Positions 17,193-35,279 of a stretch of 36,740 bases of DNA are shown piece by piece. The stretch's first letter is position 1. Every line of letters starts with the position of its first letter. The notes beneath the pieces are model-generated. The model worked only from the letters and a program-made list of their open reading frames with translations, had not been told where the DNA came from and searched no databases. Position numbers and translations under genes: made by a program. Origin of the DNA: an uncultured Anaerolineae bacterium (lineage in GTDB: Bacteria > Chloroflexota > Anaerolineae > Anaerolineales > Villigracilaceae); the NCBI GenBank assembly GCA_903910795.1, contig CAIWAX010000342.1:1-36740 (forward strand), written 5' to 3'.

Positions 17193-17954
17193 TTATTCTG
17201 TGCTCAGGCGGGCAGTGGCGCCGCCATCCACAACGATAGCCTGTCCGGTCATAAAGGAAGACTGCTCGTTATCCGCCAGGAAATAAATGGCATGGGCGAT
17301 TTCGGACGGCAGACCAACACGGCCGTTGACAGTTTTGCGCGCCAGGTTATCGAGGCGCGACTGCATATCGCCCTGTCCAACATGGCCGCGTCCCAGCCCG
17401 GCGCGCAGCATGGGAGTATCGACTGCCCCGGGCAAAATGGCATTGACGCGGATGTTATCCGGCGCAAACTCAATCGCCATGGCGCGGGTCAGGGCCAACA
17501 ACCCGCCTTTGCTGGCGGCATACGCGGCGATGTTAACCGAAGTTTGCACGGCGTGAACAGAGGAAACATTCACAACTGCGCCGCCCGCGGCCTTGAGCAA
17601 AGGGTACGAATATTTCATGAATAGGAAGGCCGGGCGCAGGTTGGAAGCCATGACCGCATCCCATTCTTCCACGGTCGTGTCCACCAGGGGCTTGGCCACC
17701 TGAACCGCCGCGTTGTTGACGAGAACTTGCAGGCTGTCGGTGGCCTGGCAGATTTGTTCAAAGATTTTACCGAGCTGGCTGGCATCTGAAATATCGGCCT
17801 GAATAAAGACACCATTTTGCGGGAAACCCTCGCCAAAGGGTGCGCGGTCCACACCAATCACCTGCCAGCCTTTTTCTGCAAACAGGGCCACCGTAGCGCG
17901 GCCGATTCCACCACCTGCACCTGTGATGATCACTGTTTTATTTTCTTTTTCCAT
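17193..17954 (-). CDS. Short-chain dehydrogenase/reductase
   Basis: A 253-residue classical SDR. The NAD(P)-binding motif TGAGGGIG is at 11-18, NNAA at 80-83, catalytic Ser131/132, and YAASK (Tyr145, Lys149). 'NAILPGAVDTPML' and 'VVDGGATAR' complete the fold. Asp36 at the end of the second strand (VIGVD) suggests NAD preference. The frame is open ten codons further, into the tandem repeat. The ATG at 17954 was chosen because AGGAG lies six bases upstream and it gives the family N-terminus. SDRs beside cytidylyltransferases occur in legionaminate-type pathways (PtmA with PtmB in Campylobacter), which is only an analogy here. Substrate unknown. Confidence 0.93.
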   Translation of the reverse strand: MEKENKTVIITGAGGGIGRATVALFAEKGWQVIGVDRAPFGEGFPQNGVFIQADISDASQLGKIFEQICQATDSLQVLVNNAAVQVAKPLVDTTVEEWDAVMASNLRPAFLFMKYSYPLLKAAGGAVVNVSSVHAVQTSVNIAAYAASKGGLLALTRAMAIEFAPDNIRVNAILPGAVDTPMLRAGLGRGHVGQGDMQSRLDNLARKTVNGRVGLPSEIAHAIYFLADNEQSSFMTGQAIVVDGGATARLSTE

Positions 17955-17966
17955 TATTAAACTCCT

Positions 17967-18106
17967 GTGGGCTTCCCAACACAATCATGTGGGCTTCCCA
18001 CCACGATCATGTGGGCTTCCCACCACGATCATGTGGGCTTCCCACCACGATCATGTGGGCTTCCCACCACGATCATGTGGGCTTCCCACCACGATCATGT
18101 GGGCTT
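17967..18106 (-). repeat. 22-bp hairpin tandem array between two operon genes
   Basis: Six full 22-bp units start at 17967, 17989, 18011, 18033, 18055 and 18077, and a partial unit of eight bases follows at 18099. Five units are identical; the first (17967) has three changes. Each holds GTGGG-CTT-CCCAC, a perfect 5-bp stem with a 3-base loop, then CACGATCAT. On the transcribed (minus) strand the array begins within the stop codon of the hydroxyacid dehydrogenase and ends just before the AGGAG of the SDR. There are no spacers, so it is not CRISPR. Such perfect tandem copies expand and contract by slippage. Confidence 0.95.
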
Positions 18107-19055: not shown

Positions 19056-21068
19056 TTACCTTTGGCAAAAATCTTCCTTAACTGTGGCAAGCAAATCCGG
19101 ATCTTTGGCAGCAGCGCTCAGCGCAGTGCAAACCTGCTTCTGGATAAAAGGGCTTTCTCCCATGATGCTGACGAAGCGGTGTAGTTTCTCTTTTTGACCG
19201 AGCGTGACATACGCCTGCAGAAAAGGCATCCATTCAATCTTATCAGACGGATAATAGCCCTCAGCCAGGGCCTTGTCTCCCAGGTTGGAAACAGTTTTCC
19301 AATCGTTCTGCTGGCGGGCAAGCGCGGCTTTCTGATAATAATAACACCAACCGTGCGGCGGTTCTGCACCGAAGAAAGCCGTTGGAGCGGGGGGCGGAGG
19401 GGCGCTTGTGAGGACATCATCAATCCTGGAGGCAGACGCCACCAGCATGATACGCTGCTGATCTTTCTCGGATAATTCAGGTGAGGCGCCGTTGATCACA
19501 CGCACACAACCAGATGGTGTGGCCTGGGTCAGCACAAGCACATTGGAGAAATCGCGCACCACATCATTCCCGCGGCGGAGCTGGGTTTCGTTGCCCTTCC
19601 CGTGCATGATTTGAATAACAGTCTCATCAGTCAGCACGGCGGCCGGAATTTTGATCTCGATCGGTATCAGGCTTTGCGGGCCGGGCTGGTAGATCATGTT
19701 GGCCGGGCCCCATACAAAATAATCTTCCTCGATCGCGCCCACCGGGTAATCAGCCACCAGGGTCGTGCCCGGTTTGATGCCAGGCACCCGCCAGGTGACT
19801 TGCCACCAGAAATCGTTCATATTGCGGGTTTCCAGGGCACCCTGTACCGCGTTGGCATACTGGGTGAATACGGCTCCTAACATTAACAAGATGATCAAGC
19901 TGGTACGGATAAATTTTTGCTCCAGATAATACAGTAGCGCTGTGATCAGTATGGCTGCTCCGGCCGCGCTGGCCAAGAGGTAGCGGGAATAATCAGTAAA
20001 ATCCGCGCGGCGATTGACCAGGATCACAGGCAGCAGACCGGCCGCCACAACGATCAGCCCCGCGAACAGGAAGATCAGCCGCCAATCAATTTCGCTGGCT
20101 TCCTGCCCGCCCTCCGCGATTGATTCGCGCCTGGAGAGCCACAGCCCCAGCAAGGTCAGCCCGATCACAAGAATTGAAATCCCCAATCCGGCAAGAAAAT
20201 CCCGCATCCGGAGGTTAAATGCCATGTTATAGACGGGCACCGCCCATGCCAGCAAAGCGGCTTTGATTGAATCCTGCAGAAGCGCAATGAACCAGCCCAG
20301 GATGGCAGAAGGAGAGCTGAAAGCCTGTCCAAGCTGGACGGATGCATCCGTGGCGCGTCTTTCGGCGGCAAAAAAGAACAACCGCCAGACAAGGAAAATG
20401 GCCGGGATAGATAGAAAAGGCAGCCATACCCGCAGCAAGGGTGCAATCATCGTTCTGATGGATCCGTTTTTTTGACGGAGCACAAAGGTCGCAACCAGAA
20501 CCAACCGCAGAGCTTCAAAACCAATAAAATATTCCACCAGTGGAAGGTAGACCAGCCCGGTCAGAATCGATAGCAAAGTGTAAACGATCCGCAAGGCGCG
20601 GTTTTCAGCGTGGATAGCCTGTACCGTCAGAGCGATGGAGATCAACGCCAGGCAGAGACTCATCAATTGAGATTGATAATCAATGGGGTTGATTTGCGAA
20701 AGAAAGCCTGGATATACCAGGAACAACAGGGCAGCCAGGAAGCTGGGGCCGGTACGGCGTGGAAATGTTTTAACCAGCGCCCAGAATAAAGCCGCCGTTG
20801 CCAGGAAACGATACAGGTAAGCGCTAATGTGGTACAACAGCACGCGGTCGCCAAACATCGAATAAATGAACTGCAAGAAGTAGCCGCGCGCGGGACGGTC
20901 GACACGGTAAATTTCATGGAAGAAACTGGCGCCCTGGGAATGGGCATCGTAGATCAGATACCAGTCATCCTTGAAATAACCCAGGCTGGCAACCAACGGT
21001 AAATAGACCGCCGCTGAGATGATCAGCAGAAACAGCATAAGCGGCCAAAAATAGTTTTTTATCTTCAT
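19056..21068 (-). CDS. Large GT-C-like membrane protein with CYYY helical tail, paralogue 1
   Basis: A 670-residue protein. Helix 1 is at about 8-30, then 'YFKDDWYLIYDAHSQG' with the acidic pair Asp34-Asp35, then 'RVDRPARGYF'. About ten helices follow. A soluble region begins near 'WWQVTWRVPGIKPGTTLVAD', and a C-terminal helical tail begins 'HGWCYYYQKAALARQQNDW', resembling one or two TPR-like helix pairs. The acidic motif after helix 1 is the layout of GT-C transferases, so transfer of a sugar from a polyprenyl phosphate on the outer face is plausible but unproven. It shares every landmark with the proteins at 21108-23240 and 23957-26170. It lacks the WNNPG repeat peptide those two contain. 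I do not recognise the family by name. Confidence 0.75.
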   Translation of the reverse strand: MKIKNYFWPLMLFLLIISAAVYLPLVASLGYFKDDWYLIYDAHSQGASFFHEIYRVDRPARGYFLQFIYSMFGDRVLLYHISAYLYRFLATAALFWALVKTFPRRTGPSFLAALLFLVYPGFLSQINPIDYQSQLMSLCLALISIALTVQAIHAENRALRIVYTLLSILTGLVYLPLVEYFIGFEALRLVLVATFVLRQKNGSIRTMIAPLLRVWLPFLSIPAIFLVWRLFFFAAERRATDASVQLGQAFSSPSAILGWFIALLQDSIKAALLAWAVPVYNMAFNLRMRDFLAGLGISILVIGLTLLGLWLSRRESIAEGGQEASEIDWRLIFLFAGLIVVAAGLLPVILVNRRADFTDYSRYLLASAAGAAILITALLYYLEQKFIRTSLIILLMLGAVFTQYANAVQGALETRNMNDFWWQVTWRVPGIKPGTTLVADYPVGAIEEDYFVWGPANMIYQPGPQSLIPIEIKIPAAVLTDETVIQIMHGKGNETQLRRGNDVVRDFSNVLVLTQATPSGCVRVINGASPELSEKDQQRIMLVASASRIDDVLTSAPPPPAPTAFFGAEPPHGWCYYYQKAALARQQNDWKTVSNLGDKALAEGYYPSDKIEWMPFLQAYVTLGQKEKLHRFVSIMGESPFIQKQVCTALSAAAKDPDLLATVKEDFCQR

Positions 21069-21107
21069 GGCTTATCCGAATATTGCAGTAAAAAAGATTG
21101 AATGAAA

Positions 21108-23240
21108 TCAGCCCCCAATGCACAGGGCTGCGTGTACCAGCCCCGCATAGGGAGTTTGTGTGGTCAATGTGATTTGCGCTTGCTGCAGGCAAATGCTCTT
21201 GCGCAAATCCTTGTCGATTTGCCCGGCAGCAGTATTGAGCTTGTCAATCTGGTTTGTGCTGGCATACGCTTCAACGATGGCCAGCCACTCGGTTTGGTCC
21301 GAGGCTTTCAGACCTTCCTGGATGGCTTTATCTGCCAGGGTCGAGGCTGCGCCGAACTTGCCGGATTGTAGAGCCAACTCGATTTGCTGATAGTAATAAC
21401 ACCAGCTATGCGGCGGCTCTTCTCCAAAAATGGAGGCAGCCGGCTGTACCGGCCGCGCCGAAAGGTCAAGCAACTTGATATTGGAATAACTGGCAATATC
21501 TTTGATTTGGCTGCCTTCGAAAAACGGCAAAGCTGGATGCTGACCATCCAGTACATGGAAACAGGAATTGACGGAAGGCATGCTGATAATAAGCGGTTTG
21601 CCGTAGTCCCGGCGCACATTAATATTACGCAGAGAACGTTTATCGAGCGTCTTATCTTTCAAATCCAGCACAGTTCTATCGGTTGGCACCTGACCCGTGA
21701 CCTGCATGGGTTGAGCGGGGTAAAAAGCCATGTTGACCGGCCCCCAAATTTCGTATTCTTCGGCCAGGTGATAGCCCTCCGGCAGCGAGACGATCAGGGT
21801 GGTGCCCGGTTGAAAACCGGGCGTGCGCCAGGATAACTGCCAGACCAGACCGCGCTCGTAATCCCAAAAACGGGCGTATTCCGCGGCACTGTGAACCTGG
21901 GTCATGACCGCCAGAAAAACCAGCCCCATGATCACCGGCCAGCGAGCCGGAGCGCGTAAAAAATAAAAGATGCAGCCGCTAACCAGGACAGCCACACCCA
22001 GCATGGATTGGGTGGTGTAACGATCCCACTGGTTGCTGAACAAGACATTGCGCCCCAACAGGTCGATGACTGCCGAGGGAATCAGCACACCGATCAAACC
22101 GATCCACACAAATGAGCGTAAATCTGCGCCGCTGGTTTCAGAGGCCAGATGGAAAGTACCCATAAGTTCAGTAGCATGGCGACGGTACCAGAAAGCATAT
22201 CCGCCAATCAGGATCAGCACGCCAACTGCAACCCCCAGGGCCAGAATGAAGTTATTAAAACGGCCGCCAGCAGTGAACTGGTAAAACGGCACAAACCAGG
22301 CCAGCACAATGGTTTCAAACAGATCTTTCAGATAGCCGATCAGGATTTGAACAAAGCTGAGCAGCGGGTTGCTGGCGTAATCACTGAGCAGAACGCTGAC
22401 GCTGGTGGCGCGGCGGACGCTGGTAAAAATGAACAGTCGCCAGTACAGGAACCCCGCCAGCATCAACAGGTAGGGCGACAGGGCCAGCAATCCCGTCCTG
22501 AAGCCGGGATTATTCCATCCCGTCCTGGAACCGGGATTATTCCACAACGGGCGGACACTGGAAAGGATAGTCGTTTTTTTAGTGGGGCTTTCGGGGTTGA
22601 CAGGCTGAGGCTGGTTCTGGCCGCCTTCGTGCGTCATCCACCAGACCAGAGCCCAGCGCACCACTTCCAAACCAATGGTGGCTTCATACAGGCCCAGGTT
22701 CACCAGCCCAAGCAGCATGGCCGCCAGGATATAGAGCACCTTGAGAACGCGGTTCGTTGTTTTGACAGCCAACACCGTCAGGGCCATGGAACAAATGATT
22801 GCGTTCAAACCCAGGAGGTCAATGCAAAAGGTGGCGGCCACCGGCTGCTGATAAAAACCAGGGTAAAGCACAAACAACAGGGCGGCGCTGAGCGTTTCGA
22901 GGCGTTTGCCCGGCCAGATCAGCCTGAGCAGCCAGAGCGCGGATAACCCGGTCAGTATCTTGAGTACCAGGCCAAAAAGCTGCCACCACAGCACGTTTGT
23001 ACCGATGAATTTAAAAATCAGCGCGTATACCCAGCCTATCAGCGGCCGGTCGGTCAGGAAAAGGCGGGTGATGGCGGTCAACCCGCCAGGAGACTGACCG
23101 GCCCAGAGCATATACCAGTCATCCCGGTAAAAACCCAGTTGGGGAATCAAAATGCCATAGGTCAGCGCCGCGACCACAATGATCAGACCGCCGGCCAGCC
23201 AGGTTTCCATCCGGCCATTTTTCTTGAGTTCATCATTCAT
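21108..23240 (-). CDS. Large GT-C-like membrane protein with CYYY helical tail, paralogue 2
   Basis: A 710-residue protein with the same order of parts as its neighbour: helix 1, 'FYRDDWYMLWAGQSPGG' (Asp40-Asp41), 'LTDRPLIGWVYAL', about ten helices, 'VWQLSWRTPGFQPGTTLIV', and the tail 'HSWCYYYQQIELALQSGKF'. The loop after 'ALVWWMTHEGG' is expanded by about 40 residues and contains WNNPGSRTG (233-241) directly followed by WNNPGFRTG (242-250), encoded by two tandem 27-bp repeats. Residues about 357-364 (TELMGTFH) come from a copy of repeat R1. Its ATG overlaps the end of the cytidylyltransferase gene by eight bases, so they are translated from one transcript. The tail and mid-region signatures set it apart from GT39. 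Confidence 0.75.
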   Translation of the reverse strand: MNDELKKNGRMETWLAGGLIIVVAALTYGILIPQLGFYRDDWYMLWAGQSPGGLTAITRLFLTDRPLIGWVYALIFKFIGTNVLWWQLFGLVLKILTGLSALWLLRLIWPGKRLETLSAALLFVLYPGFYQQPVAATFCIDLLGLNAIICSMALTVLAVKTTNRVLKVLYILAAMLLGLVNLGLYEATIGLEVVRWALVWWMTHEGGQNQPQPVNPESPTKKTTILSSVRPLWNNPGSRTGWNNPGFRTGLLALSPYLLMLAGFLYWRLFIFTSVRRATSVSVLLSDYASNPLLSFVQILIGYLKDLFETIVLAWFVPFYQFTAGGRFNNFILALGVAVGVLILIGGYAFWYRRHATELMGTFHLASETSGADLRSFVWIGLIGVLIPSAVIDLLGRNVLFSNQWDRYTTQSMLGVAVLVSGCIFYFLRAPARWPVIMGLVFLAVMTQVHSAAEYARFWDYERGLVWQLSWRTPGFQPGTTLIVSLPEGYHLAEEYEIWGPVNMAFYPAQPMQVTGQVPTDRTVLDLKDKTLDKRSLRNINVRRDYGKPLIISMPSVNSCFHVLDGQHPALPFFEGSQIKDIASYSNIKLLDLSARPVQPAASIFGEEPPHSWCYYYQQIELALQSGKFGAASTLADKAIQEGLKASDQTEWLAIVEAYASTNQIDKLNTAAGQIDKDLRKSICLQQAQITLTTQTPYAGLVHAALCIGG
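22150..22173 (+). repeat. Dispersed repeat R1, short form, inside paralogue 2
   Basis: TGGAAAGTACCCATAAG then TTCAGTA, a full 24-base match to the tandem units at 35357-35404 and 36688-36735. It is read on the minus strand as TELMGTFH in a loop between predicted helices. Confidence 0.88.
22491..22544 (+). repeat. Repeat family R2, two tandem 27-bp copies inside paralogue 2
   Basis: Units 22491-22517 and 22518-22544 each read TCCCGTCCTG, then AAG or GAA plus CCGGGATTATTCCA. Each has TCCCG pairing with CGGGA and, in the second copy, TGGAA pairing with TTCCA, so two mutually exclusive small hairpins are possible. Length is a multiple of three. On the minus strand they encode WNNPGFRTG and WNNPGSRTG in the gene's own frame. 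Confidence 0.9.
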
Positions 23241-23949
23241 GGATGGAATGTTCCTGCTGCGTACCCGATTGGCCGGCTTTTTCCCGGTTCTGGTTACGCA
23301 TCATCAAGTCTGCAATTTGAAAATCAAACTCATCATCAATATCGACAGCTTCATGGCGCGGGACTTCAAACATCAAGGGACGATCGCCCAGACGGTTGCG
23401 CCGGGAAAGCAGGTTGTCGCGTTTGAACAGGTAGAAACACGAGTTTTCTTCAAAAACCGGGGGCAGATCCTGGGTCTGTAACAGGATTGCCGGGTTGTGA
23501 TTGATAGCGCGCGTCAGCCCATCCCACAAGCGAGTTTGCAGGCGGGTGACTGAAAACATTGAGTCATAGACAGGGTGTTGAGACAGAAAACTCTGGATTG
23601 CCTGCGAGAGAGTCGCAGCCTTAAGCAGCGGGTTGGTGCTGTGAGTCTGAAGAAAAAAATCAGCCTGTACCTGACCGGTGTCGTAGGTCAGGATTTCATT
23701 CATAGGGATGGCGTCGGCGCGCAGATGTTCTGGCCGTTCAATGATTCTAACTTGCGGAAAGCTGGCGCGCAGTCCATCCATGATGGGCTGGGAATCGGTG
23801 TCCACCAGGATGGTGGTTACTTCGGGCACATCCAACAGGGTTTCGATGATGTACTGGTACAACGGTTTGCCCGCCAGGCTGCGATAATTCTTACCGGGTA
23901 CACGCTGGCTGTGATGGCGCATTGGAACAAGAGCAGCAATATCAGGCAT
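23233..23949 (-). CDS. CMP-sugar-type cytidylyltransferase (NeuA/KdsB-like)
   Basis: A 238-residue nucleotidyltransferase. It begins 'IAALVPMRHHSQRVPGKNYR', the CTP-binding loop of acylneuraminate cytidylyltransferases with the conserved Arg and Lys. It continues 'LAGKPLYQYIIETL', 'ILVDTDSQPI', 'ADFFLQTHSTNPLLKA' and ends with the metal-binding 'EAVDIDDEFDFQIADLM'. It should form a CMP-activated sugar acid such as a nonulosonate or a Kdo-like sugar. The frame is open to TTG 23973; ATG 23949 gives the family N-terminus and has AGGGG about ten bases upstream, so it is preferred. It is embedded between two of the large paralogous membrane genes and overlaps the second by eight bases. No nonulosonate synthase gene is in the window. 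Confidence 0.88.
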   Translation of the reverse strand: MPDIAALVPMRHHSQRVPGKNYRSLAGKPLYQYIIETLLDVPEVTTILVDTDSQPIMDGLRASFPQVRIIERPEHLRADAIPMNEILTYDTGQVQADFFLQTHSTNPLLKAATLSQAIQSFLSQHPVYDSMFSVTRLQTRLWDGLTRAINHNPAILLQTQDLPPVFEENSCFYLFKRDNLLSRRNRLGDRPLMFEVPRHEAVDIDDEFDFQIADLMMRNQNREKAGQSGTQQEHSIHE

Positions 23950-23956
23950 GGTTTGA

Positions 23957-26170
23957 TTACCCCTGGCACCCAAGTTTTTGTTTCACCTGCAGAATGACCT
24001 GATCGCGCTGCCCACTGGGCGTAGTACTGGTTTCAATCTCTCTCCACAAGCTGCATAATAAAGATTTCTCAACCGGTGGCAAAACATCCGCCATGTTGGT
24101 CAGTTCACGCGCGGTGGTCCAATCACCAGTTCTGGCTTCGGCCTCAATGAAAGGGATCAATTCAATGCTGGCGCCCGGATGAAAACCCTTGTCTTTGGCG
24201 TCCTTCCAGAGTCCGGTGACTGTTTGCCAGTTCTTTTGTTGACTGGCAAGATCGGCTTTTTCATAATAATAACACCAGGTGTGTTTGGGCTCACTTCCAA
24301 ACACTGCGGATGGCGGTCCCGTACTGGAACCGGGATTATTCCATAACGTGGTTGACTGCGGTTGGATTAGATTAAGATTCGAGATGGCCATCCAGCGATA
24401 GGCTTCATCGGTAAATGAACGCACTTCAGAGTAAGAAGGTCTCAGCACCCATAAACATTGTCCCTGCTGTGGCTCAAAAGTAATTGAAAGCACCGCCTGG
24501 TTTGTGGCAGTAAAGACAGAACTGTAGCGGGCAATTTCAACCGGCTGGCCGTGCTGAAAATTTGTCCAATTCATGTGCTCAGAGCCGTTATTGAACCAGT
24601 ACATCGGCGCGGTGGCACCCCGCAAGGTGGGGTTGACTGACCCGGGGGCCCCAACCTGGGGGCCGTATAAAACGTTAAGCGCAAAAGCGGTGGGGTAATA
24701 ACCCATATAAGGCAGTATCTCAGAATCAGCCACCACCATGGTATTGGGCTGCAGGCCAGGTGCCCGCCAAGACATCTGCCAGTAAAACTGAAGTTGTTTA
24801 TCCCAGGAAGTCTGAAAATCACGCGCGGTTTGAGCCTGGAACCCAACCGCCAATCCCAACAGGATACTCAACACCAGGTGACGGTAAGCGGGCCGGTCGA
24901 CCAGCAGATAAACGAACCCGGTCAGCAACATACTGGCCCCCAGGATCGCTCCCAGAGCCAGCCGGCCACTCCACAACGGATTTTTGGAAAACAAGAACAT
25001 ATCCGCCAGCCAGGGAGGCAGCAGCCCGAAGAACATGGCAAGCGCGCCGGTCAAAATGATCTGGCGAGTAGACCGGTGTGTTTCTTCTTTCTTTTGCGTT
25101 TCCAGGCGTGAAACAACAAAATAGCCAAGCAAACTGAATCCCAGGATGATTGCCAAAATGACAAAAGTGGTACCGCGGCTGAAATCGATCAGGGCCGGGT
25201 CCACGGTGGCTATCCAGGGCGAGATCAGCACAAAAGCGGAATCCTGCAGGACAGTCTGGATGAAAAACGGGATTCCCGTCATCGGTGTATGAATCAGGCT
25301 GTTCAGCAAGTTGGATGTAAAGCGATCGTATCCATAGATGGTATGGTAAGACATCCGGTAGGCGGCGTATATGCCAAGTACCAGAAGGTAAGGCAGCCAT
25401 TGCTTGAGAACTTGCTTCCAACGCTTTAAATAGGAAATTTCACTTCCCGTACTAGTGCCGGGATTATTCGAGAAAACAAACCACAGCAGGATCAACCGGA
25501 CGAATTCCAACCCGGAATAATATTCGATCATCAAAAGATGAAACAACTGCAGGATCAGCGCCAGGCCGGTGTACAGAAGATATGATTTTGGGTTACGAGC
25601 GGCTTTCAGCATCATTACCACTGAAAGCATGAAAACCAGGTACATGATCCAGTGCAGACTGTAAGCCACTGATAAGGATTGGAGCGGGTAAGCCGGGTAA
25701 ACGGCGAATAACAGCGCCAGCCAGACTGCCATGCCAGTCAGATTCGGCCACACCAATCTGACCGCGTACCAGAATGTCAGCACGGTCAGGAAGCGCAGGA
25801 TCATCAACGACCAGTGCCAGTTGGCCGGGTTGAAACCAAGCAGTTTAAATAAAGGTACATAAGCGATGAAGGCCAGAGGGCGGCTGTCTGTGAACAGGAA
25901 GCGCATCAGACCACTGACGCCTTCGGCATAAGCATAATACACGTGATGCCAGTCATCCTGGAAAAAACCCAATCTGGACAGAAGAATTCCAAAAGAGAAG
26001 AAACAAGTCACAAATAGCATCAGAGGCCCGCACCAGGCCGGCAGGCTGGCGTTCCTGATCTTTGAGTTGAAAAACTCCTTTAGTTTTCTGAATTCAGGTT
26101 GAGCGGAGGGTTTGGGTTTGTCTGTCAATCTTATCCTTCGAATGATCGTGCCCGCGTTGAGCACAGGCAT
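23957..26170 (-). CDS. Large GT-C-like membrane protein with CYYY helical tail, paralogue 3
   Basis: A 737-residue protein with an extra 40-residue charged N-terminal segment, then helix 1, 'FFQDDWHHVYYAYAEG' (Asp72-Asp73), 'TDSRPLAFIAYVPLF', about ten helices, 'YWQMSWRAPGLQPNTMVVAD', and the tail 'HTWCYYYEKADLASQQKNW'. Two R2 repeats are translated in frame: SNNPGTSTG (234-242) in the same loop where paralogue 2 has its double copy, and WNNPGSSTG (610-618) in the linker before the helical tail. It is the first of the three genes in transcription order. An 80-base gap separates it from the GT2 upstream. A GT-C role is inferred from the DDW motif and topology only. Confidence 0.75.
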   Translation of the reverse strand: MPVLNAGTIIRRIRLTDKPKPSAQPEFRKLKEFFNSKIRNASLPAWCGPLMLFVTCFFSFGILLSRLGFFQDDWHHVYYAYAEGVSGLMRFLFTDSRPLAFIAYVPLFKLLGFNPANWHWSLMILRFLTVLTFWYAVRLVWPNLTGMAVWLALLFAVYPAYPLQSLSVAYSLHWIMYLVFMLSVVMMLKAARNPKSYLLYTGLALILQLFHLLMIEYYSGLEFVRLILLWFVFSNNPGTSTGSEISYLKRWKQVLKQWLPYLLVLGIYAAYRMSYHTIYGYDRFTSNLLNSLIHTPMTGIPFFIQTVLQDSAFVLISPWIATVDPALIDFSRGTTFVILAIILGFSLLGYFVVSRLETQKKEETHRSTRQIILTGALAMFFGLLPPWLADMFLFSKNPLWSGRLALGAILGASMLLTGFVYLLVDRPAYRHLVLSILLGLAVGFQAQTARDFQTSWDKQLQFYWQMSWRAPGLQPNTMVVADSEILPYMGYYPTAFALNVLYGPQVGAPGSVNPTLRGATAPMYWFNNGSEHMNWTNFQHGQPVEIARYSSVFTATNQAVLSITFEPQQGQCLWVLRPSYSEVRSFTDEAYRWMAISNLNLIQPQSTTLWNNPGSSTGPPSAVFGSEPKHTWCYYYEKADLASQQKNWQTVTGLWKDAKDKGFHPGASIELIPFIEAEARTGDWTTARELTNMADVLPPVEKSLLCSLWREIETSTTPSGQRDQVILQVKQKLGCQG
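24317..24343 (+). repeat. Repeat R2, single 27-bp copy inside paralogue 3 (tail linker)
   Basis: TCCCGTACTGGAA followed by CCGGGATTATTCCA. It carries both TCCCG/CGGGA and TGGAA/TTCCA inverted pairs. The minus strand reads WNNPGSSTG, residues 610-618, just before the FGSEP-x-HTWCYYY segment. The other two paralogues have no equivalent peptide here. Confidence 0.9.
25445..25471 (+). repeat. Repeat R2, diverged 27-bp copy inside paralogue 3 (helix loop)
   Basis: TCCCGTACTAGTG then CCGGGATTATTCGA. The minus strand reads SNNPGTSTG, residues 234-242. It has more changes than the other copies, so it may be the older insertion. Confidence 0.82.
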
Positions 26171-26250
26171 AACTCTTAGTTCAGACGCGTTTTGCTACCG
26201 GTTTCTTGAAAGCCAGAAATCATTTATACGCGAAACTGGGCAATTATCGC

Positions 26251-27228
26251 TTACCTATTATACCGAATTGGTTCCACATCCCGTTTGCCGGGTTGCGTCG
26301 GTTCAGTACCGCGGGGATAATAAAATGTCTGGCGCAGTTGCCAGTTCCATTCCGGTGACTGGCGGTAACCCTGGTAAGTACCCCAGAACTGGTTCCAACG
26401 GAACCAGAATATACTGGCGAAATTTTCAAAAAATATTTTTTGATTGGCTGCCTGCCACAAATCATTAGAAATATTGCCGGTCAACATTCGCGCAAGATCA
26501 TACAGGCTAAAATGCGCCGCGGGGTAGATATGTTTGAAAGCGATGGCCTCACGCCTGTAACGGTTGAAAACACCCGCAGGTGTCTCATTGTGAATATGGA
26601 TTATCTCGGCTGCGGGTACATAAGCAAGAACATTGGAGTGAGTCAAAGCCCATTTCGCCCAGGCCAGATCTTCCAGGCCGGTCAATGTTTCATCGTAGGA
26701 ATGTTGGTTCCACAAAGACTTGCGGATGGCAGCATTGGCATTATTACAAAACGGATGCAACTGCCCTGGATCGGGTTGTTCTGGGAACCAGCGGGCGAAA
26801 ACCTCGTGTTCCGAGAATTTAGTTGTTTGCGCTCTTCGCGCATGGCTTTTGGCCGCCTGGGTTGCTGATGTGGGATCTCCGCGCTGTTTTCCATAAGATA
26901 ATGCGACCTGAGGATCATTGAAAGGCTCCAACAAGCGCTCCAGCCAATCCGGGTAAACCGGGTAAACATGCGCGCTGGCAATCACCACCAGGGGATGCGT
27001 AGCCGCACCAAGACCAAGATTTAACGAACGCCCAAATGTGAATTCTTTGGGAGAAATATGGAGGACCCTGGCGGCGTAAGTTTTGGCAATTGAAATAGTC
27101 GCATCGGTTGAACCAGAGTCAACCAGGATGACTTCTACATCCTGCACAGTTTGCTGTCTGATCCCCTCCAGCAAACGGCCAAGATGCAGGCTTTCATTAT
27201 AGGCGCGGATAACAATTGAACAATCCAT
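26251..27228 (-). CDS. Family 2 glycosyltransferase (rhamnosyltransferase-like)
   Basis: A 325-residue GT2 with 'SIVIRAYNESLHLGRLLEGI', 'VEVILVDSGSTDATI', 'FGRSLNLGLG' and a 'VVIASAHVYPVYPDWLERLL' segment in place of the usual DxD strand. 'FCNNANAAIRKSLW' and 'LTGLEDLAWAKWAL' (the ED base motif) follow. This pattern is that of GT2 enzymes annotated as rhamnosyl- or other deoxyhexosyltransferases, and it differs clearly from the two GT2 genes at 11318 and 13814. The acidic motif is replaced by SAH, as is common in this subgroup. It lies between a sulfotransferase gene and paralogue 3 on one transcript. Sugar specificity is not readable. Confidence 0.88.
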   Translation of the reverse strand: MDCSIVIRAYNESLHLGRLLEGIRQQTVQDVEVILVDSGSTDATISIAKTYAARVLHISPKEFTFGRSLNLGLGAATHPLVVIASAHVYPVYPDWLERLLEPFNDPQVALSYGKQRGDPTSATQAAKSHARRAQTTKFSEHEVFARWFPEQPDPGQLHPFCNNANAAIRKSLWNQHSYDETLTGLEDLAWAKWALTHSNVLAYVPAAEIIHIHNETPAGVFNRYRREAIAFKHIYPAAHFSLYDLARMLTGNISNDLWQAANQKIFFENFASIFWFRWNQFWGTYQGYRQSPEWNWQLRQTFYYPRGTEPTQPGKRDVEPIRYNR

Positions 27229-27255
27229 AGGGATCAGTTTTATCTGCGCGCGTCT

Positions 27256-28149
27256 CTACCAGTTGTTGTCTTTTTCATAACCCAACTGGATCAGCAAATC
27301 TCCGGCTATATCCTTGAACAAGGTTTTATGTTCTTCTTTAAAATATTTCTTCCACTCACCAGTCTTACCTGAACGAAAAGTGGGTGAGCGCTTGGGATTA
27401 ATGTTGCCTTCCAATGCGCGGATGATTTCATCGCGGCTGGATGGCAAGGTGTCCACCCGATTCAGAAAGTGATCCACCACCTTGCCGAGGGTGTCCTGGC
27501 GCTGGTGGATGAATTCTTCAAAGCGTAATACAAGCACCTCGGGCCGCGCCAGCCAACCCTGGTATAGTTCAAAACGTTTGGCGATATTGGGAAATTCAAT
27601 GTCCGTGTCTGGGCGACCAAGGATGCTAACCTTGAGACGTTCATCGAAGCTTTTCAGGTTCTGATTGTAATACTGATAGTGCGCATGATCGGGCGCCATC
27701 TCGGTGACAAAGAAAACATGCGAAACCACGATATCGCGCGGGTCGCGAAAGATCAGATAGGGGATGAACCTGGGTGTACAGACCGCTTCCACCACTTCGG
27801 GCCAGGCCAGTAGATGGGCGGTGGTGACATCCAGAGGTCGCAGGGAGTTGACATAAGCCAGGGCCTCGCCCACGCTGCGCTTTTTCCCGGTTTCACCATC
27901 GTACGACACAAACGGCAGAGCCACATGCGATGAAAACGGCGCCACGCGGGAAAAACCCATCAGAACCTGGTCAAGCAGATGTGTCCCACTTTTTGGAAAT
28001 GAATTTGCCATTAGCACCGGCCAACCGCCCGCTGGAGGATTGATCTTCGCAAACCTGGCGCGCTGAAGTAAAACTTCGCTCCTATAAACGGATAGGCGCA
28101 AGCTGTTTCGCAAACCGGTTGGCATGGAGTTGGCAAATCGCTTTTTCAT
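27256..28149 (-). CDS. Sulfotransferase-domain protein
   Basis: A 297-residue PAPS-dependent sulfotransferase. The 5'-phosphosulfate loop is 'SFPKSGTHLLDQVLMG' (50-65, PKSGTH at 52-57). The 3'-phosphate loop is 'YLIFRDPRDIVVSHVFF' (131-147). 'RFEEFIHQRQDTLGKVVDHFL' and a C-terminal 'RSGKTGEWKKYF' complete the Sulfotransfer_1 pattern, including the GxxGxWK-like PAPS motif, so this is a full-length enzyme. A basic N-terminus without a clear membrane helix suggests a cytoplasmic protein. It is the second sulfotransferase of the cluster and is much closer to consensus than the one at 8240-8974. Acceptor unknown; the surrounding glycosyltransferases suggest a polysaccharide or glycolipid. Confidence 0.93.
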   Translation of the reverse strand: MKKRFANSMPTGLRNSLRLSVYRSEVLLQRARFAKINPPAGGWPVLMANSFPKSGTHLLDQVLMGFSRVAPFSSHVALPFVSYDGETGKKRSVGEALAYVNSLRPLDVTTAHLLAWPEVVEAVCTPRFIPYLIFRDPRDIVVSHVFFVTEMAPDHAHYQYYNQNLKSFDERLKVSILGRPDTDIEFPNIAKRFELYQGWLARPEVLVLRFEEFIHQRQDTLGKVVDHFLNRVDTLPSSRDEIIRALEGNINPKRSPTFRSGKTGEWKKYFKEEHKTLFKDIAGDLLIQLGYEKDNNW

Positions 28150-28169
28150 GGCATTCCTGCAAATCTATT

Positions 28170-29789
28170 TTATGAATTTTCTTCCAAAAGGAAGTCACCG
28201 TTCTCAATCAAGCCTTTTGTCACGGTTTGTATGGCCGGAGACTTCAACAAGTCACGTGGATCGAACCATTTCAGGCGGGCATGTGTGCTGCGCACACCGG
28301 TTTCAAGGAACTGGCCGAAAGGCAGGGATGTACGGAACAACTGATAATAAAGAAAACGGCGGGCGTTATACCGGAATTTGGACGGCACATCGATTGTATC
28401 AGCAGCCAGGAAAGCCTCCAGTAAACTGGCATATTCGGCCTGCCCTTGCGGGAAGAAGACTGTGGGGTACTGGGTGAAACGCGCCCGCCCGGCGCACAGC
28501 ACCGCAGCGCCCAGAATCGTCGCTTCCAACCCGATGGTGGAATTGTATATCAACACAAATCTGGCGCGCGCAATCAATTCATATGAACTCAAATGCTCAT
28601 TCGGCGGTACGAAGTGGATGTTGGGCAGATCAGTTGCCCGGCGGCTCTCAACCCAGCCTGCCACTGTTTCCAAACCGGCTTTGCGAACACGCATTTCATC
28701 CGGATGGGCGCGGATCACAAATAAGGTTTCGGGGTGGCGCCGGGCACTCTCTATGATCAAATCAAGCCAGGCGAACATATCAGGGAAAATGGTATTGGCA
28801 TGCGGCTGGCTGGTATCAAAGATTACGTTTGTAAAAACCGGGACAATTTGTTTAAACTGCGCGGATTTTTGCAGAAAGTCTTCATCCATCCCCCGCATGG
28901 TTGTCCAAAACTTGACACCAGCCATGCTGAAATTACCCTGAAAGCGGTTTTGCAGGTAAGCATCCAGGCGGGCACTCTGAGCATCATTCAATTCAAAGCT
29001 ATCGGGGATATGGATGGGATAGGCAGTCGCCTCGCCATCTGTAAAGAAGGCCGTGGCGGGCAACAATCCCACTTCATGACTGATGACGCGCAATCCGCGT
29101 CCTTGGGCAACCCATTTGGCCGCAGCTTCCGGGTAAAACTGGCCGTTAAACACTATCACCGCTTGTGGTTGAGTGGAATCCAGGAAATGCCCAAAAGAAA
29201 CCGCCACGTTCCAGGCTGACTGAATGTATTCACACAAGAAAAATCGGGTGGCATCATCATCCAATAAATTGTGCCGGCGCAGTATCCAGCGCAAACCGGG
29301 CAGAACAAGCTTCCCAAGCGGCATACCCTGCCACTCAAAAACCATCAATTGCGCAAGCGTCAAATTCTTCAACGCACTTTCAAGTTCTGGATCGCGCTCA
29401 AAACCAAACCAGTTCACTTTTGCACCGCTGTAAAGTGTTTTGGACTGATAAACGCAGGAACGGCAGGGGGGCGGCTGAGGAGGCGCATCCCGGTTGGTAC
29501 CCAGCACACAACGGCTCATGCCGTGGTCACAGGCAAAGAAAATTACCGGTACAGCTTGCAAGCGCAACCCCCAGGATGTCAGCAGGTGAAAGGCGCTGTT
29601 CCATGAAAGATCATCTATGCCGCTGGATGCTTTAAAAAACACCACCGGACGTTCATCCGCCGGGTGAGGCGCAAGCGCAGCCACTCGCCGGCCCAACAGG
29701 ACGATATTGGCATTATTAATATGCCGCGCCAGGCGGCGTTGGATACGTTGGATATAAAAATCTTTAAGCATGAACGCGTATTTTATCAT
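28170..29789 (-). CDS. GT-B-like capsule/surface polysaccharide transferase
   Basis: A 539-residue soluble protein, first gene of the minus-strand glycan block. The C-terminal half has 'LFVIRAHPDEMR' and 'FVLIYNSTIGLEATILGAAVLCAG', the H-P and N-S-T-x-x-x-E-A-x-x-G pattern of capsule polysaccharide synthases and CDP-glycerol-type transferases. The N-terminal part has a basic helix-rich start and a cysteine pair in 'PPPCRSCVYQSKTLYSG', preceded by 'FFACDHGMSRC'; such cysteines could bind metal but this is unproven. It resembles the 295-1737 protein in its C-terminal motif but is longer by about 60 residues. The ATG at 29789 has AAGGGG about seven bases ahead; a second in-frame ATG at 29771 has none. 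Confidence 0.75.
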   Translation of the reverse strand: MIKYAFMLKDFYIQRIQRRLARHINNANIVLLGRRVAALAPHPADERPVVFFKASSGIDDLSWNSAFHLLTSWGLRLQAVPVIFFACDHGMSRCVLGTNRDAPPQPPPCRSCVYQSKTLYSGAKVNWFGFERDPELESALKNLTLAQLMVFEWQGMPLGKLVLPGLRWILRRHNLLDDDATRFFLCEYIQSAWNVAVSFGHFLDSTQPQAVIVFNGQFYPEAAAKWVAQGRGLRVISHEVGLLPATAFFTDGEATAYPIHIPDSFELNDAQSARLDAYLQNRFQGNFSMAGVKFWTTMRGMDEDFLQKSAQFKQIVPVFTNVIFDTSQPHANTIFPDMFAWLDLIIESARRHPETLFVIRAHPDEMRVRKAGLETVAGWVESRRATDLPNIHFVPPNEHLSSYELIARARFVLIYNSTIGLEATILGAAVLCAGRARFTQYPTVFFPQGQAEYASLLEAFLAADTIDVPSKFRYNARRFLYYQLFRTSLPFGQFLETGVRSTHARLKWFDPRDLLKSPAIQTVTKGLIENGDFLLEENS

Positions 29790-29806
29790 TTAACCGCCCC
29801 TTGTAT

Positions 29807-29812
29807 ATAATA
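29807..29812 (-). promoter_or_regulatory. Possible -10 element upstream of the minus-strand glycan block
   Basis: On the minus strand TATTAT lies just upstream of ACAAGGGG and the ATG at 29789. A TTGC-type -35 (TTGCTG) is found about 20 bases further, which is long. It is the only large gap before the cluster, so a promoter is expected here. The match is weak. Confidence 0.3.
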
Positions 29813-30050
29813 GAGAAAACGGCTCAGCACCTCAGCAATTGCAATTCTCATTATGGAAAATATTTAGTGACTTTCTCCCACCCAAGCAGGAAAAACGGCA
29901 TTAATTCGTCATAACTGTATTGATCAGGTAACGGTAGGACAAACCCATAGGGCAATGTGCGCAGCACTCAGTAAATAAAGGATCGCACAAATCACCCCCT
30001 CCCAACCTCCTGCGACCCACAGGGCACGTGAGAACACGCAGGCGAGATCA

Positions 30051-30159
30051 GCCCCAAATCACCCCCTTCCCGGCCCTCCCCCAAATCCAAGAGCGGGATT
30101 TGGAGGAGGGGAAACCCAGGGCAAATTGGAAGGTTTGTTTGAGTTTTTGCTGATGAATA
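30051..30159 (+). repeat. Intergenic repeat R3, copy 1
   Basis: It begins GCCCCAAATCACCCCC. It contains a long hairpin in which CCAAATCC pairs with GGATTTGG around AAGAGCG, extended outward by CCTCC against GGAGG with one mismatch, and ends ATTGGAAGGTTTGTTTGAG then a TGATGAATA end. A second copy lies at 33856-33957 in the same orientation with scattered substitutions and a shorter middle. Confidence 0.85.
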
Positions 30160-30203
30160 CAAAACCATCGATATTTAGTTCTTTTACCCACATTTTTTCC
30201 GAA

Positions 30204-30268
30204 TGGAAAGTACCCACGATTTGCTCCCGCAAGGGCATCGGGACGATGTTAGTAGATCGTTCAGTATG
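30204..30268 (+). repeat. Dispersed repeat R1, variant with a longer middle
   Basis: TGGAAAGTACCCACGATTTG is followed by a different middle (30224-30255, containing TCCCG and CGGGA as inverse complements) and then GATCGTTCAGTATG. Both ends match the other R1 copies while the palindrome right arm is replaced. Confidence 0.75.
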
Positions 30269-30341
30269 ACGGAACATGGTGAGCAGTTACCTTTGGCCTT
30301 GACTTTAAGGAGCCCGCGCAGGAAGGTTGCAGCTTTATTTT

Positions 30342-32006
30342 TCAGTCAATCTGGCTGTCTGGCTCTTCCAATTTTTGGATGAGGTAGTATTCTCCGCGTT
30401 CAAAACCACGTTCCAGGTAGTATTTGCGCGTGCCGATGGCAGAAATGACGGCTAAATGTTTATAGCCGCGCAGAACGGCGATGCGTCTGGCTTCGGCGAG
30501 GAGTTTTGTGCCGAGGCCGCTGTGTTGGGCCCCGTTGGGGCCGGTATGTTCCGCACCAACGGCCAGGGATTGCCCATAAACGTGTACTTCGCGGATGAGG
30601 GCGGCGCCTTCGAGGTCAACCAGCCCGGTGTGGGGCGAACCGGGCTGGGGGAGGCTGAGGCGGAGGAAGCCGGCGATGCGGTCATCGGGGGTGACAAAGG
30701 AGAGGAAGTGTTCTTCGGCGGGGCCGGCCGGGTAGGTCAGATCATCGAGGCGCAGTTGGGCGGCGTCGAGATTAGCTGCGCGGACTTCGCGGCAGCGGAT
30801 GCAGTTGCAGGCGGTGGCGCGCCGTTTTAACTCGGCCTGGACATCCATGCGCAGGCTGGTGCGTTTGTTGCCTTCGACTACATTGGTGGAGGGGATATCC
30901 CGGATGACGCGGTTGACGCGGCAGTAGCGCGGGATGCCGGGTTTGACATCGGCGATCAGGTTGATCAGTTCTTCGGTGGTATAGGGTTTGTATTCGCCGC
31001 GCTGCCAGACTTGGTAGAGTTCGGTATTGGCGAGCAGCTGGTTGGGGTAGATTTTGATCTCATCCGGGCAGAAGCCGTCCCATAACTTCTCAAAATCAAT
31101 GCGGTCGCTGGCGGGGGTGGCGCCGTGGAGGTTGGGCATCCAGTGGAGGACGATTTTGAAGCCGGCGGCGCGCAGGAGGGCGACGGCTGTGCGGGTGGCT
31201 GCTACGTTGTGGCCGCGTTTGTTCATTTCCAGGATGCGGTCGTCCAGGCTCTGGGCGCCCATTTGGACTTTGGTCACGCCGAGGTAGCGCAGCCAGAGCA
31301 GTTCGCGGGGTGTGATTTCATCGGGCCGGGTTTCTATGACGAGGCCAACGTTGCGGTGAGAGGCGTTTTCGTTGAGGGCCTGGGCGGCGGGGAGGTCGGG
31401 GCTTTCGGGGGGGGGCGATTGCCGCGCTTCGCTTGCAATGACGCAGTTCATGGCATCAAAGCAGCGTTTGATGAACCATTCCTGGTAGTCGCGGCGGTAG
31501 GCGCTCCATGTGCCGCCCAGGATGAGGAGTTCAATTTTGTCGGTCGGGTGGCCGAGGGAATCGAGGGCGGCGATGCGGGACTGGACCTGGGTGAAGGGGT
31601 CGAAGTTGTGTTCGAGGGCCCGCATGGCGCCGGGTTCATCGGGCAGGTAGGATTTGGGCATGCGGACATCGGTGGGGCAGAAGATGCATTTGCCGGGGCA
31701 AGGGTAGGGTTTGGTGAGAACGGTGACGGTGGTGACGCCGGATAGGGTGCGGACGGGTTTCATGCGGATGCGTTCGAGCAGGTCTTGATCCGGCTGGCGT
31801 TCGCCAGCCTGGGTCATTTCGACGTAGGCTGCGACGAGGGCGGCTTTGCTGAGGATGCCGCCATTTGGCTGGGGGTGGGCGCGCAGAGCGTCCAGCACGG
31901 GTTTCCCGGCGCGGACATCGTCCAGCACCAGGCGGGCGAGGGTTATTTTTTCGGGTGTGAGGGTGTTATCGCGTTTCCAGCGTTCCTGACGGGCAGTGGT
32001 TGGCAT
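30342..32006 (-). CDS. elp3: Elp3-family tRNA wobble-uridine carboxymethyl transferase
   Basis: A 554-residue enzyme fusing a radical SAM domain and a GNAT acetyltransferase domain. The family forms the cm5U-type modification on U34 of tRNA from acetyl-CoA and S-adenosylmethionine. The iron-sulfur cysteines are C103, C107 and C110 in 'YPCPGKCIFCPTD'. 'ELLILGGTWSAY', 'GLVIETRPDE', 'KVQMGAQSLDD' and 'VHWMPNLHGATP' are core Elp3 landmarks. The GNAT part includes 'LIREVHVYG', 'HSGLGTKLLAEA' and 'YYLERGFERGEYY'. Residues 188-197 (CVIASEARQS) are an in-frame insertion encoded by a palindromic repeat (31417-31443). It starts four bases after the HIT gene stop. It is a standalone Elp3, as in other bacteria and archaea that lack the other Elongator subunits. 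Confidence 0.93.
   Translation of the reverse strand: MPTTARQERWKRDNTLTPEKITLARLVLDDVRAGKPVLDALRAHPQPNGGILSKAALVAAYVEMTQAGERQPDQDLLERIRMKPVRTLSGVTTVTVLTKPYPCPGKCIFCPTDVRMPKSYLPDEPGAMRALEHNFDPFTQVQSRIAALDSLGHPTDKIELLILGGTWSAYRRDYQEWFIKRCFDAMNCVIASEARQSPPPESPDLPAAQALNENASHRNVGLVIETRPDEITPRELLWLRYLGVTKVQMGAQSLDDRILEMNKRGHNVAATRTAVALLRAAGFKIVLHWMPNLHGATPASDRIDFEKLWDGFCPDEIKIYPNQLLANTELYQVWQRGEYKPYTTEELINLIADVKPGIPRYCRVNRVIRDIPSTNVVEGNKRTSLRMDVQAELKRRATACNCIRCREVRAANLDAAQLRLDDLTYPAGPAEEHFLSFVTPDDRIAGFLRLSLPQPGSPHTGLVDLEGAALIREVHVYGQSLAVGAEHTGPNGAQHSGLGTKLLAEARRIAVLRGYKHLAVISAIGTRKYYLERGFERGEYYLIQKLEEPDSQID
31417..31443 (-). repeat. Palindromic repeat inserted in frame in elp3
   Basis: On the minus strand it reads CGTCATTGCAAGCGAAGCGC followed by GGCAATC. 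It contains nested inverse complements (ATTGC with GCAAT, GCG with CGC). It encodes CVIASEARQS. Closely similar sequences, and the peptide they encode, are a recognised class of dispersed repeats in several bacterial phyla. In this window only one copy is seen. Confidence 0.7.
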
Positions 32007-32010
32007 AGGG

Positions 32011-32358
32011 TTATCCCATTGGGAACTTTAAATGCTGGCCGCCGATCACGTGCATGTGCAGGTGAAAGACTGTCTGTCCGCTGTGGGGGCCAGTGTTGAC
32101 GATGGCGCGGTATCCGCCCGCGGTGATTTGGTCGATTTCGGCGACTTTGCGGGCGACGCTGAATAGCCGGCCCAGGATGTGTTCATCTTCGGTTTCAACC
32201 TGGCTGACGGATTGGATGTGTTTGTTTGGCACGACGAGGATGTGGGTGGGCGCGACCGGGTGGATGTCGCGGAAGGCGGTGACCAGTTCGTCTTTGTAGA
32301 CGATGGAGGCTGGTAGTTCGCCGGAAATTATTTTGCAAAAGGGGCAGGCAGGGTTCAT
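32011..32358 (-). CDS. HIT-family nucleotide-binding hydrolase
   Basis: A 115-residue histidine-triad protein. It starts '[19 protein letters not shown]', the usual zinc-site N-terminus of Hint-type proteins with the CxxC pair. It has '[16 protein letters not shown]' and ends with the HxHxH triad in '[11 protein letters not shown]'. Family members hydrolyse nucleoside phosphoramidates or dinucleotides. The frame continues upstream for 19 codons to an ATG at 32415, but the ATG at 32358 matches the family start and the longer frame runs into an imperfect palindrome. It sits just upstream of elp3 (four bases), so both are on one transcript. Confidence 0.93.
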
Positions 32359-32413
32359 ATTATGTTGGGGTTCCAGGTGGAGGGTACCTAGCTGGACAAG
32401 GATTAAACATTTC

Positions 32414-32481
32414 ACCGCAAAGGCGCGAAGAGCGCCAAGGAATGCTTATAAAAAACTTTGCGAACTTTGAGCCTTGGCGGT
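32414..32481. repeat. Imperfect 26-bp inverted repeat in the HIT upstream region
   Basis: The left arm is 32414-32439, starting ACCGCAAAGGCGC. The right arm is 32456-32481, ending CCTTGGCGGT. They pair at 20 of 26 positions around a 16-base AT-rich loop. The CAAAGGCGC-type wording is that of a widespread intergenic repeat (ACCGCAAAGACGCAAAG). It separates the deacetylase and HIT genes, and may act as a terminator-like or mobile remnant sequence. Confidence 0.75.
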
Positions 32482-32581
32482 ATATTGGGTCATTTTTGGT
32501 GATAAAAGCGTTAACCGCTGAGCGGAGGTCGCTGAGCTTGTTGGAGATACCCAAACAATGACACGGCTGAGAGGTAATATG

Positions 32582-33778: not shown

Positions 33779-33800
33779 GGTTTTGATTCTAACCTATTCC

Positions 33801-33823
33801 AATCAAGTTACGGGATTATTCCA
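33801..33823 (+). repeat. Repeat R2-related copy upstream of the deacetylase gene
   Basis: AATCAAGTTA then CGGGATTATTCCA. It matches the 3' half of R2 (CGGGATTATTCCA) and shares the AATCAAG prefix with the copy at 35161. It starts 23 bases upstream of the deacetylase ATG at 33778 on the opposite strand. Confidence 0.7.
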
Positions 33824-33855
33824 TATCATTCCGCTGGTCATAAGGTGGAGGGTCG

Positions 33856-33957
33856 GCCCCAAACCACCCCCTCCCAATCTCACCCAAATCCAAGAGCGGG
33901 ATCTGGAGGAGGGGCGGGGCGAATTGGAAGGTTTGTTTGAGCTTTCGCTGATGAATA
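33856..33957 (+). repeat. Intergenic repeat R3, copy 2
   Basis: Same orientation and order as 30051-30159: GCCCCAAACCACCCCC, CCCAAATCCAAGAGCGGGAT, GGAGGAGGGG, ATTGGAAGGTTTGTTTGAG, and a TGATGAATA end. The stem is less perfect here (GGATCTGG). It lies between the deacetylase start and the ino1 terminator; there is no gene in 33779-34043. Confidence 0.85.
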
Positions 33958-33967
33958 GAAGTGGGAT

Positions 33968-34002
33968 AAAAAATGGGGACATTCGCACGGGCGAACGTCC
34001 CC
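33968..34002 (-). terminator. Strong rho-independent terminator of ino1
   Basis: Read on the minus strand, GGGGACGTTCGC pairs with GCGAATGTCCCC over 12 positions (one G-U pair) around loop CCGT, followed by A and six T residues. It begins 41 bases after the ino1 stop at 34044. This is the clearest terminator in the window. Confidence 0.9.
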
Positions 34003-34043
34003 ACATAAATTCACAGGCAGGGCCATGGGGCCATGAGGGAGAT

Positions 34044-35120: not shown

Positions 35121-35160
35121 GTTATTATTCTCCTTGCCGTACAAATTATGTGCCAGTTTC

Positions 35161-35183
35161 AATCAAGAACCGGGATTATTCCA
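35161..35183 (+). repeat. Repeat R2-related copy upstream of ino1
   Basis: AATCAAGAAC then CGGGATTATTCCA. It keeps GAACCGGGATTATTCCA of full R2 and the AATCAAG prefix seen at 33801. It starts 41 bases upstream of the ino1 ATG on the opposite strand. Confidence 0.75.
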
Positions 35184-35207
35184 TTATTGCATAGCGGGTA
35201 CCAAGAA

Positions 35208-35220
35208 GGAAAGTACCCAC
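35208..35220 (+). repeat. Repeat R1, left-half fragment
   Basis: GGAAAGTACCCAC only; the sequence after it does not match the palindrome or right end of R1. Confidence 0.55.
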
Positions 35221-35279
35221 GGAAGTTGGACTATGATTTGTGTGATTGAATGATTTTGTGATTAGAGCATTTAAAGTGC

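Follow-up and report, generated by a model that had tools for sequence, protein, structure and literature searches.

The DNA examined here, called the window, is the whole 36,740-nucleotide stretch of contig C342, part of a 5.01-Mb genome assembly of an uncultured Anaerolineae bacterium (496 contigs, 92% complete). For one gene of this genome, the best named relatives are those of Anaerolineae/Anaerolineales, in the Chloroflexota. Three paralogous genes lie in the window, together with six 27-bp units of a repeat designated R2, four of them within two of the paralogues and two bordering other genes, and several copies of a second repeat, R3. All six R2 units are matches to a covariance model of the repeat.

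19056-21068, minus strand: paralogue 1, 670 aa, without the element, no Pfam match at E 0.001
21108-23240, minus strand: paralogue 2, 710 aa, host to two R2 units and one R3 unit, no Pfam match at E 0.001
23957-26170, minus strand: paralogue 3, 737 aa, host to two R2 units, no Pfam match at E 0.001
22491-22517, plus strand: R2 copy 1 in paralogue 2, where the minus strand reads WNNPGFRTG
22518-22544, plus strand: R2 copy 2, read as WNNPGSRTG, in exact head-to-tail tandem with copy 1
24317-24343, plus strand: R2 copy 3, read as WNNPGSSTG in paralogue 3
25445-25471, plus strand: R2 copy 4, read as SNNPGTSTG in paralogue 3
33797-33823, plus strand: R2 copy 5, just upstream of gene 32582-33778 and intergenic according to the gene model used
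35157-35183, plus strand: R2 copy 6, bordering gene 34044-35162 on its 5' side, with the core in intergenic DNA
10531-10569, minus strand: R3 long form, 39 bp, with the palindrome GATTTGC-TTA-GCAAATC, in the 5' part of gene 9014-10594
10610-10633, minus strand: R3 copy in gene 10587-11321, close to the C-terminal end
22150-22173, minus strand: R3 copy, 24 bp, in frame in paralogue 2 (TELMGTFH)
35279-35317, minus strand: R3 long form, 39 bp
35357-35404, minus strand: R3 tandem pair, 24 + 24 bp
36688-36735, minus strand: R3 tandem pair, two copies at the contig end

A sequence-only reading of the window had reported four 27-bp copies in a single frame in two paralogues, and these were found as described, all four being read in one common frame of the minus strand. 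The absence of the element from paralogue 1 was borne out by alignment of the paralogues, in which the R2 copies of paralogues 2 and 3 occupy different columns. The related non-coding sequence noted near 33801 and 35161 corresponds to copies 5 and 6, both at gene borders; copy 6 covers the first 6 bases of the open reading frame 34044-35162 (TTG start), whose product is presumably inositol-phosphate synthase-like. The core CCGGGATTATTCCA occurs exactly at 22504, 22531, 24330 and 35170 and with one mismatch at 25458 and 33810. With up to three mismatches the core gave 10 matches in the window against a shuffle mean of 4.1, and the window alone is weak evidence for R2 because 1 of 100 shuffles also reached 10. 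The predicted fold of paralogue 2 (three window sequences) had a mean pLDDT of 52.5, and its R2 residues fall in a low-confidence stretch that is mainly coil. No Rfam match was obtained at gathering thresholds for the part of the window from 21000 to 36740. Elsewhere in the window, at 17966-18106, an array of 6.4 copies of the 22-bp unit TGTGGGCTTCCCACCACGATCA lies at the start of gene 17193-17984; the length of this unit is not a multiple of three, and one more weak copy (L024) was seen in the 956 kb examined.

Dispersal, structure and target site of R2 and R3

The sequence-only reading had proposed a genome-wide search in coding and non-coding DNA. A 14-mer R2 core with at most one mismatch was found in both, with 126 matches in the whole genome against 0 for the reversed control, and a 12-mer core at the same stringency gave 184 against 3 for the reversed pattern. 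The covariance model gave at least 150 matches at E <=0.1, and the R2 consensus is TCCCAANCAAGAACCGGGATTATTCCA. Forty stretches picked for holding core matches, 662 kb including the window, were studied closely. Among 93 R2 sites there (at most one mismatch), 52 were intergenic, 7 straddled a predicted gene border and 34 were genic, by genes predicted with our own codon-usage script and with single core matches that may include chance; random placement would put 84%, the coding share of positions, in genes. R2 is a DNA element and not a protein motif. The short R2 copies (n = 72) comprise 43 that are single and dispersed and 29 in tandem. Units within one array tend toward common private variants, so most tandem arrays look like later local duplications. 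The R2 copies are very probably mobile, non-autonomous DNA elements of 27 bp that form one family.

R3 is 24 bp long, TACTGAACTTATGGGTACTTTCCA, and unrelated to R2 in sequence. Its 20-mer, with at most two mismatches, gave 351 matches in the genome against 0 when reversed. The two families nevertheless have features in common, beginning with their layout. In R2 the first 4 bases pair with 4 bases past an 11-nt loop, and an 8-nt tail ending in TTCCA follows; in R3 the first 3 bases can pair past an 11-nt loop, and the 7-nt tail also ends in TTCCA, which suggests that R3 is laid out likewise around a stem of 3 bp. That stem is a weak one, its three pairs forming in 56, 59 and 45 of 72 distinct copies. 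Both families also have a long form that carries the palindrome GATTTGC-TTA-GCAAATC and adds 15 bp, taking R2 from 27 to 42 bp and R3 from 24 to 39 bp, and all four lengths are multiples of three. A further palindromic repeat family, ACACCTGCACTTGCGTTCCGGTGC, is built around the GATTTGC palindrome and is sometimes nested (L012:175, L035:36, L007:3921, L004:10954 and L032:15695).

Conservation of the R2 stem was assessed in an alignment of 73 copies, with 17 of 90 left out. In this alignment 92.8% of stem cells pair, above all 500 shuffles (91.2 +/- 0.4), and slid versions of the stem pair in at most 69.2%. The G-T pair excess in the stem was disregarded, the copies having been found via their 3' half. 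Covariation within the alignment is modest, with one pair changed on both sides, in 5 cells. The commonest stem in the source genome is TCCC/GGGA, and TCTC/GAGA occurs in two of its long forms. Among 27 distinct R2-like copies from three same-genus genomes (G004, G008 and G010), some of which are possibly chance matches, 13 have T-A and 9 have C-G at stem pair 4; at stem pair 1 the numbers are 18 with T-A and 4 with C-G. The pair-1 C-G copies all come from one five-unit tandem array with the stem CCCC/GGGG, inside a 766-aa frame. These comparisons of aligned copies show that the R2 hairpin is maintained and that its stem changes in step between species. The five-unit array (L239; contig C287 of G004, about 4121-4255) encodes PNQEPGLFR repeats.

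The sequences flanking the two families are also alike. R2 is flanked by C at -3 in 66%, A at -1 in 63% and T at +1 in 88%, and the corresponding values for R3 are 60%, 62% and 90%. Among single copies, 17 of 41 in R2 and 18 of 50 in R3 have the complete site, C-N-A^T, over a background of 1.6%. Since the R2 end reads CCA^T, insertion would recreate the target. Direct equality of the two flanks was seen in 4, 1, 1, 0 and 0 of 43 single R2 copies at k = 1 to 5. Junctions from R2 into R3 were found at 3 of 114 R2 ends and from R3 into R2 at 0 of 146 R3 ends, and these few junctions are against frequent insertion into the ends of existing elements.

Among relatives, the R2 covariance model (E <=0.1) gave 46 matches in G004, 4 in G008 (best 7e-9) and 4 in G010 (best 4e-6); 27 other relatives had 0-7 matches each, none better than 7e-4. 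By simple pattern the R2 core occurs 18 times in G004 and 0-7 times in each of the remaining genomes, against 0-1 for the reversed pattern. R3 is present in the source genome alone among 11 of the genus, with 0 matches in the ten others, and a search of 60 relatives gave 1 match. An exact search with degenerate R2 strings returned 0 hits in public genome and viral contigs, a collection from which records of near relatives may be missing and a method that would miss variant subfamilies such as that of G004. Given the restricted spread of both families, their expansion looks recent and lineage-specific.

Insertion into protein-coding genes

Six host genes, those for the NuoE-F-like subunit, RecD2, a response regulator-PP2C protein, alanine racemase, paralogue 2 and an acyltransferase, were compared with same-genus genomes. 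The NuoE-F-like subunit has an orthologue in G008 (81% amino acid identity) that lacks exactly 8 aa at the R3 site and exactly 9 aa at the R2 site. In RecD2, exactly 9 aa are missing in all three orthologues compared. At the first site of a response regulator-PP2C protein, exactly 9 aa are missing in G004, and G010 lacks 9 aa in a split gap. The alanine racemase was a suspected counter-example, having a FYG-x-x-P stretch of its own that resembles the R2 insert; the insert is read as an insertion because the relatives show a gap of 10 aa there (6 of 6 compared, with four further same-genus matches left out). Paralogue 2 bears directly on the sequence-only reading, which had named conservation of the peptide across distant homologues as the observation that would speak against a mobile element: neither the R2 nor the R3 peptide is present in its orthologues from G007 (63%) and G008 (64%). 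At its R3 site the G007 protein has a gap of 8 aa and, separately, one of 1 aa; the G008 gap there spans 9 aa. An exact 9-aa difference is not visible in the variable surroundings of the acyltransferase linker, the R2 loop of paralogue 2 and the second site of the regulator. The aligned orthologues show that R2 and R3 were added precisely, as clean units of 27 and 24 bp, to genes that relatives hold element-free. The proposal that a DNA element had spread in frame into open reading frames is thus upheld by the dispersal of the copies, by the use of five reading frames and by orthologues that are shorter by exactly the 9 aa of R2 or the 8 aa of R3.

The same reading had called for a check of frame bias. 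Genic R2 uses five of the six frames, and the frame with a consensus TAA is nearly avoided (1 of 34 copies); for R3, 30 of 55 copies are genic and its two stop frames hold 0 of the 30, these counts including tandem units that are not independent. The common R2 variant has TGA in the WNNPG frame. Of the copies read in that frame, 11 of 12 have no stop at this point, compared with 21 of 46 of those between genes (Fisher p 0.007). The window copies therefore look alike because the stop-free subtype was kept. Neither the WNNPG frame nor membrane proteins are special, as R2 also occurs in enzymes and in other frames. We infer that the WNNPG peptide is a by-product of R2 insertion.

Genic copies are frequent near gene ends: 12 of 34 R2 (expected 4.4) and 17 of 30 R3 (expected 3.2) lie within 25 codons of one. 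In some cases the ATG of a high-scoring frame lies exactly at the end of an element. Such frames have 471, 847 and 544 aa in the source genome, and 4 of 10 copies in G004 end in this way, the true starts being uncertain because the frames stay open upstream. A histidine kinase (L030:85-3327) contains five tandem R3 units (MESTHEFN/MESTHKFN repeats) within its HATPase domain.

Origin of the elements and known systems

In the mechanism that we propose, one trans-acting recombinase, or an RNA- or single-stranded-DNA-based machinery, would recognise the hairpin and tail and join the element into C-N-A^T, any target duplication being no longer than about 1 bp. Selection after insertion would then leave copies between genes, at gene ends and in protein segments that tolerate them; as every length is a multiple of three and stops are absent from the majority of frames, copies in such segments or in termini could survive.

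A mobilising enzyme for R2 or R3 was not found in the 92%-complete assembly. Of 74 contig ends, 16 have an R2 or R3 core within 100 bp, compared with 106 of 4000 internal windows, the contigs having been partly picked for holding elements, and the assembly seems to break at these repeats. Given these breaks and the completeness, an enzyme may be missing. A search of the assembly with PF01797 returned one protein, a 565-aa frame (L119:10324-12018) with a Y1 domain at its C-terminus. This protein has PDYLQW where an intact relative (the L051 protein) has PDHVHL, and F replaces the tyrosine, at what we take to be the HUH and Tyr motif positions as placed against the HVH of the L051 protein. Its contig carries no R2, and one R3 long form lies about 10 kb away. 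It was rejected as a RAYT (a Y1 HUH transposase), since both HUH and Tyr are lost and domain proteins of similar length occur in element-free relatives; perhaps it is a domesticated DNA-binding protein. A survey of repeats of at least 150 bp in 956 kb gave 32 rows, and a larger parent transposon may exist. Two further kinds of sequence were noted in the assembly: a MITE-like repeat of roughly 180 bp, with copies about 79-97% identical (L020:18794, L029:5688, L137:13334 and L011:16835), and two reverse transcriptase genes (L261:989-2417; L262:2298-4834), one of them followed by a small protein, which has the look of a diversity-generating retroelement, and one beside a Cas1-like gene.

One account of the window, that WNNPG is a normal inherited motif of membrane proteins, would explain why all four genic copies there share one frame. 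It is hardly credible, however, given that the peptide is absent from the G007 and G008 orthologues and from paralogue 1 and that R2 DNA is also read in other frames and present between genes; on these grounds the protein-motif reading was ruled out. Minisatellite slippage, by which 27-bp units would multiply only locally, draws on the exact tandem arrays with common private variants and on the cores at contig ends, and it is likely to remain the explanation for the arrays themselves. As a full account it is very improbable, being contradicted by the dispersed single copies (43 of the 72 short copies) and unable to explain how a first unit came to lie at many unlinked C-N-A^T sites.

Two routes of transposition were weighed as well. 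Spread through an RNA intermediate, in which a small structured RNA is reverse-transcribed and then inserted, has reportedly been suggested for the small dispersed repeats (SDRs) of Nostoc. The compact hairpin and the tail ending in CCA would suit such a route, and an RVT_1 protein is present in all four genomes with strong R2 matches (G000, G004, G008 and G010) against 1 of 7 others of the genus. Those four are also the largest of the eleven genomes, however, so that genome size confounds the link, and the reverse transcriptases of the source genome, judged by their neighbours, seem to belong to a diversity-generating retroelement in one case and to be Cas1-linked in the other; we consider this route unlikely. 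Movement as a REP-type element, a tagged palindrome mobilised by a RAYT via single-stranded DNA, is doubtful, if somewhat less so. It would account for the one-end tail with hairpin, the 20-40 nt size, the intergenic bias with some genic copies and the want of a clear target duplication, and the accessible text of PMC3733652 reports GTAG repeats from Chloroflexi and CGTC-repeat tails of which most fit CCA. Against it, neither R2 nor R3 has GTAG or CGTC at an end, and the sole Y1 protein of the assembly is catalytically degenerate. A more far-reaching reading, to which we give less than an even chance, is that R2 and R3 are two families within one undescribed system of 24-42 bp hairpin elements, moved by one trans-acting enzyme into C-N-A^T and held to multiples of three in length by passage through protein-coding genes.

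Elements as short as R2 and R3 probe the lower size limit of mobile DNA, and if the one-system reading is true they would rank with the smallest mobile DNA known and would represent a new tag class beside the GTAG and CGTC REPs. Two sequence-unrelated families with one target suggest one common enzyme, for which a search is possible. The conserved proteins that have received clean insertions of 8 and 9 residues (the NuoE-F-like subunit and RecD2 helicase) amount to a natural insertion-scanning experiment, and such insertion is a route by which proteins may gain new segments.

Among known repeats, REPs as described in the accessible text of PMC3733652 are similar in being short palindromes with a one-end tag, in copy numbers that can reach the hundreds or beyond, and in lying mostly between genes and sometimes within them. 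R2 and R3 differ from them in their ends, which lack the GTAG or CGTC tag, and in that head-to-tail arrays are common. REP families with GTAG are reported to have a cognate RAYT, whereas no intact Y1 transposase was found in the assembly studied here. REP stems are 5-13 bp (GTAG) or 8-9 bp (CGTC); here the long-form arms are 7-8 bp and the short-form stems 4 bp (R2) and 3 bp (R3). Small dispersed repeats are mentioned in the accessible portions of PMC2884548 and PMC3116915, and a literature search on such elements in Chloroflexota, from which subscription papers were mostly absent, found none beyond the GTAG repeats (PMC3733652) and PMC6006769. The likeness to Rickettsia palindromic elements drawn in the sequence-only reading stands in function, unrelated host genes gaining in-frame peptides from a mobile DNA repeat in both cases; it fails for size and frame use, the Rickettsia elements being about 150 bp with a conserved in-frame peptide according to the accessible part of PMC10969869, whereas R2 and R3 are 24-42 bp and five frames are used.

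MITEs are marked by terminal inverted repeats and a target-site duplication. R2 and R3 resemble them in being short, non-autonomous and dispersed, but are far shorter, with a consensus that has no visible terminal inverted repeats and with no clear target duplication. The SDRs of Nostoc punctiforme, reportedly described by Elhai and co-workers in 2008, are 21-27 nt long and dispersed, with reported evidence of mobility, and some of their families are unrelated in sequence yet alike in their hairpin. R2 and R3 are similar in these features, at 27 and 24 bp, dispersed and with empty sites in relatives. They differ from SDRs in coming from another phylum and in sharing both a C-N-A^T target and a longer palindromic form; in addition, they often form tandem arrays, and conserved genes provide examples of empty sites.
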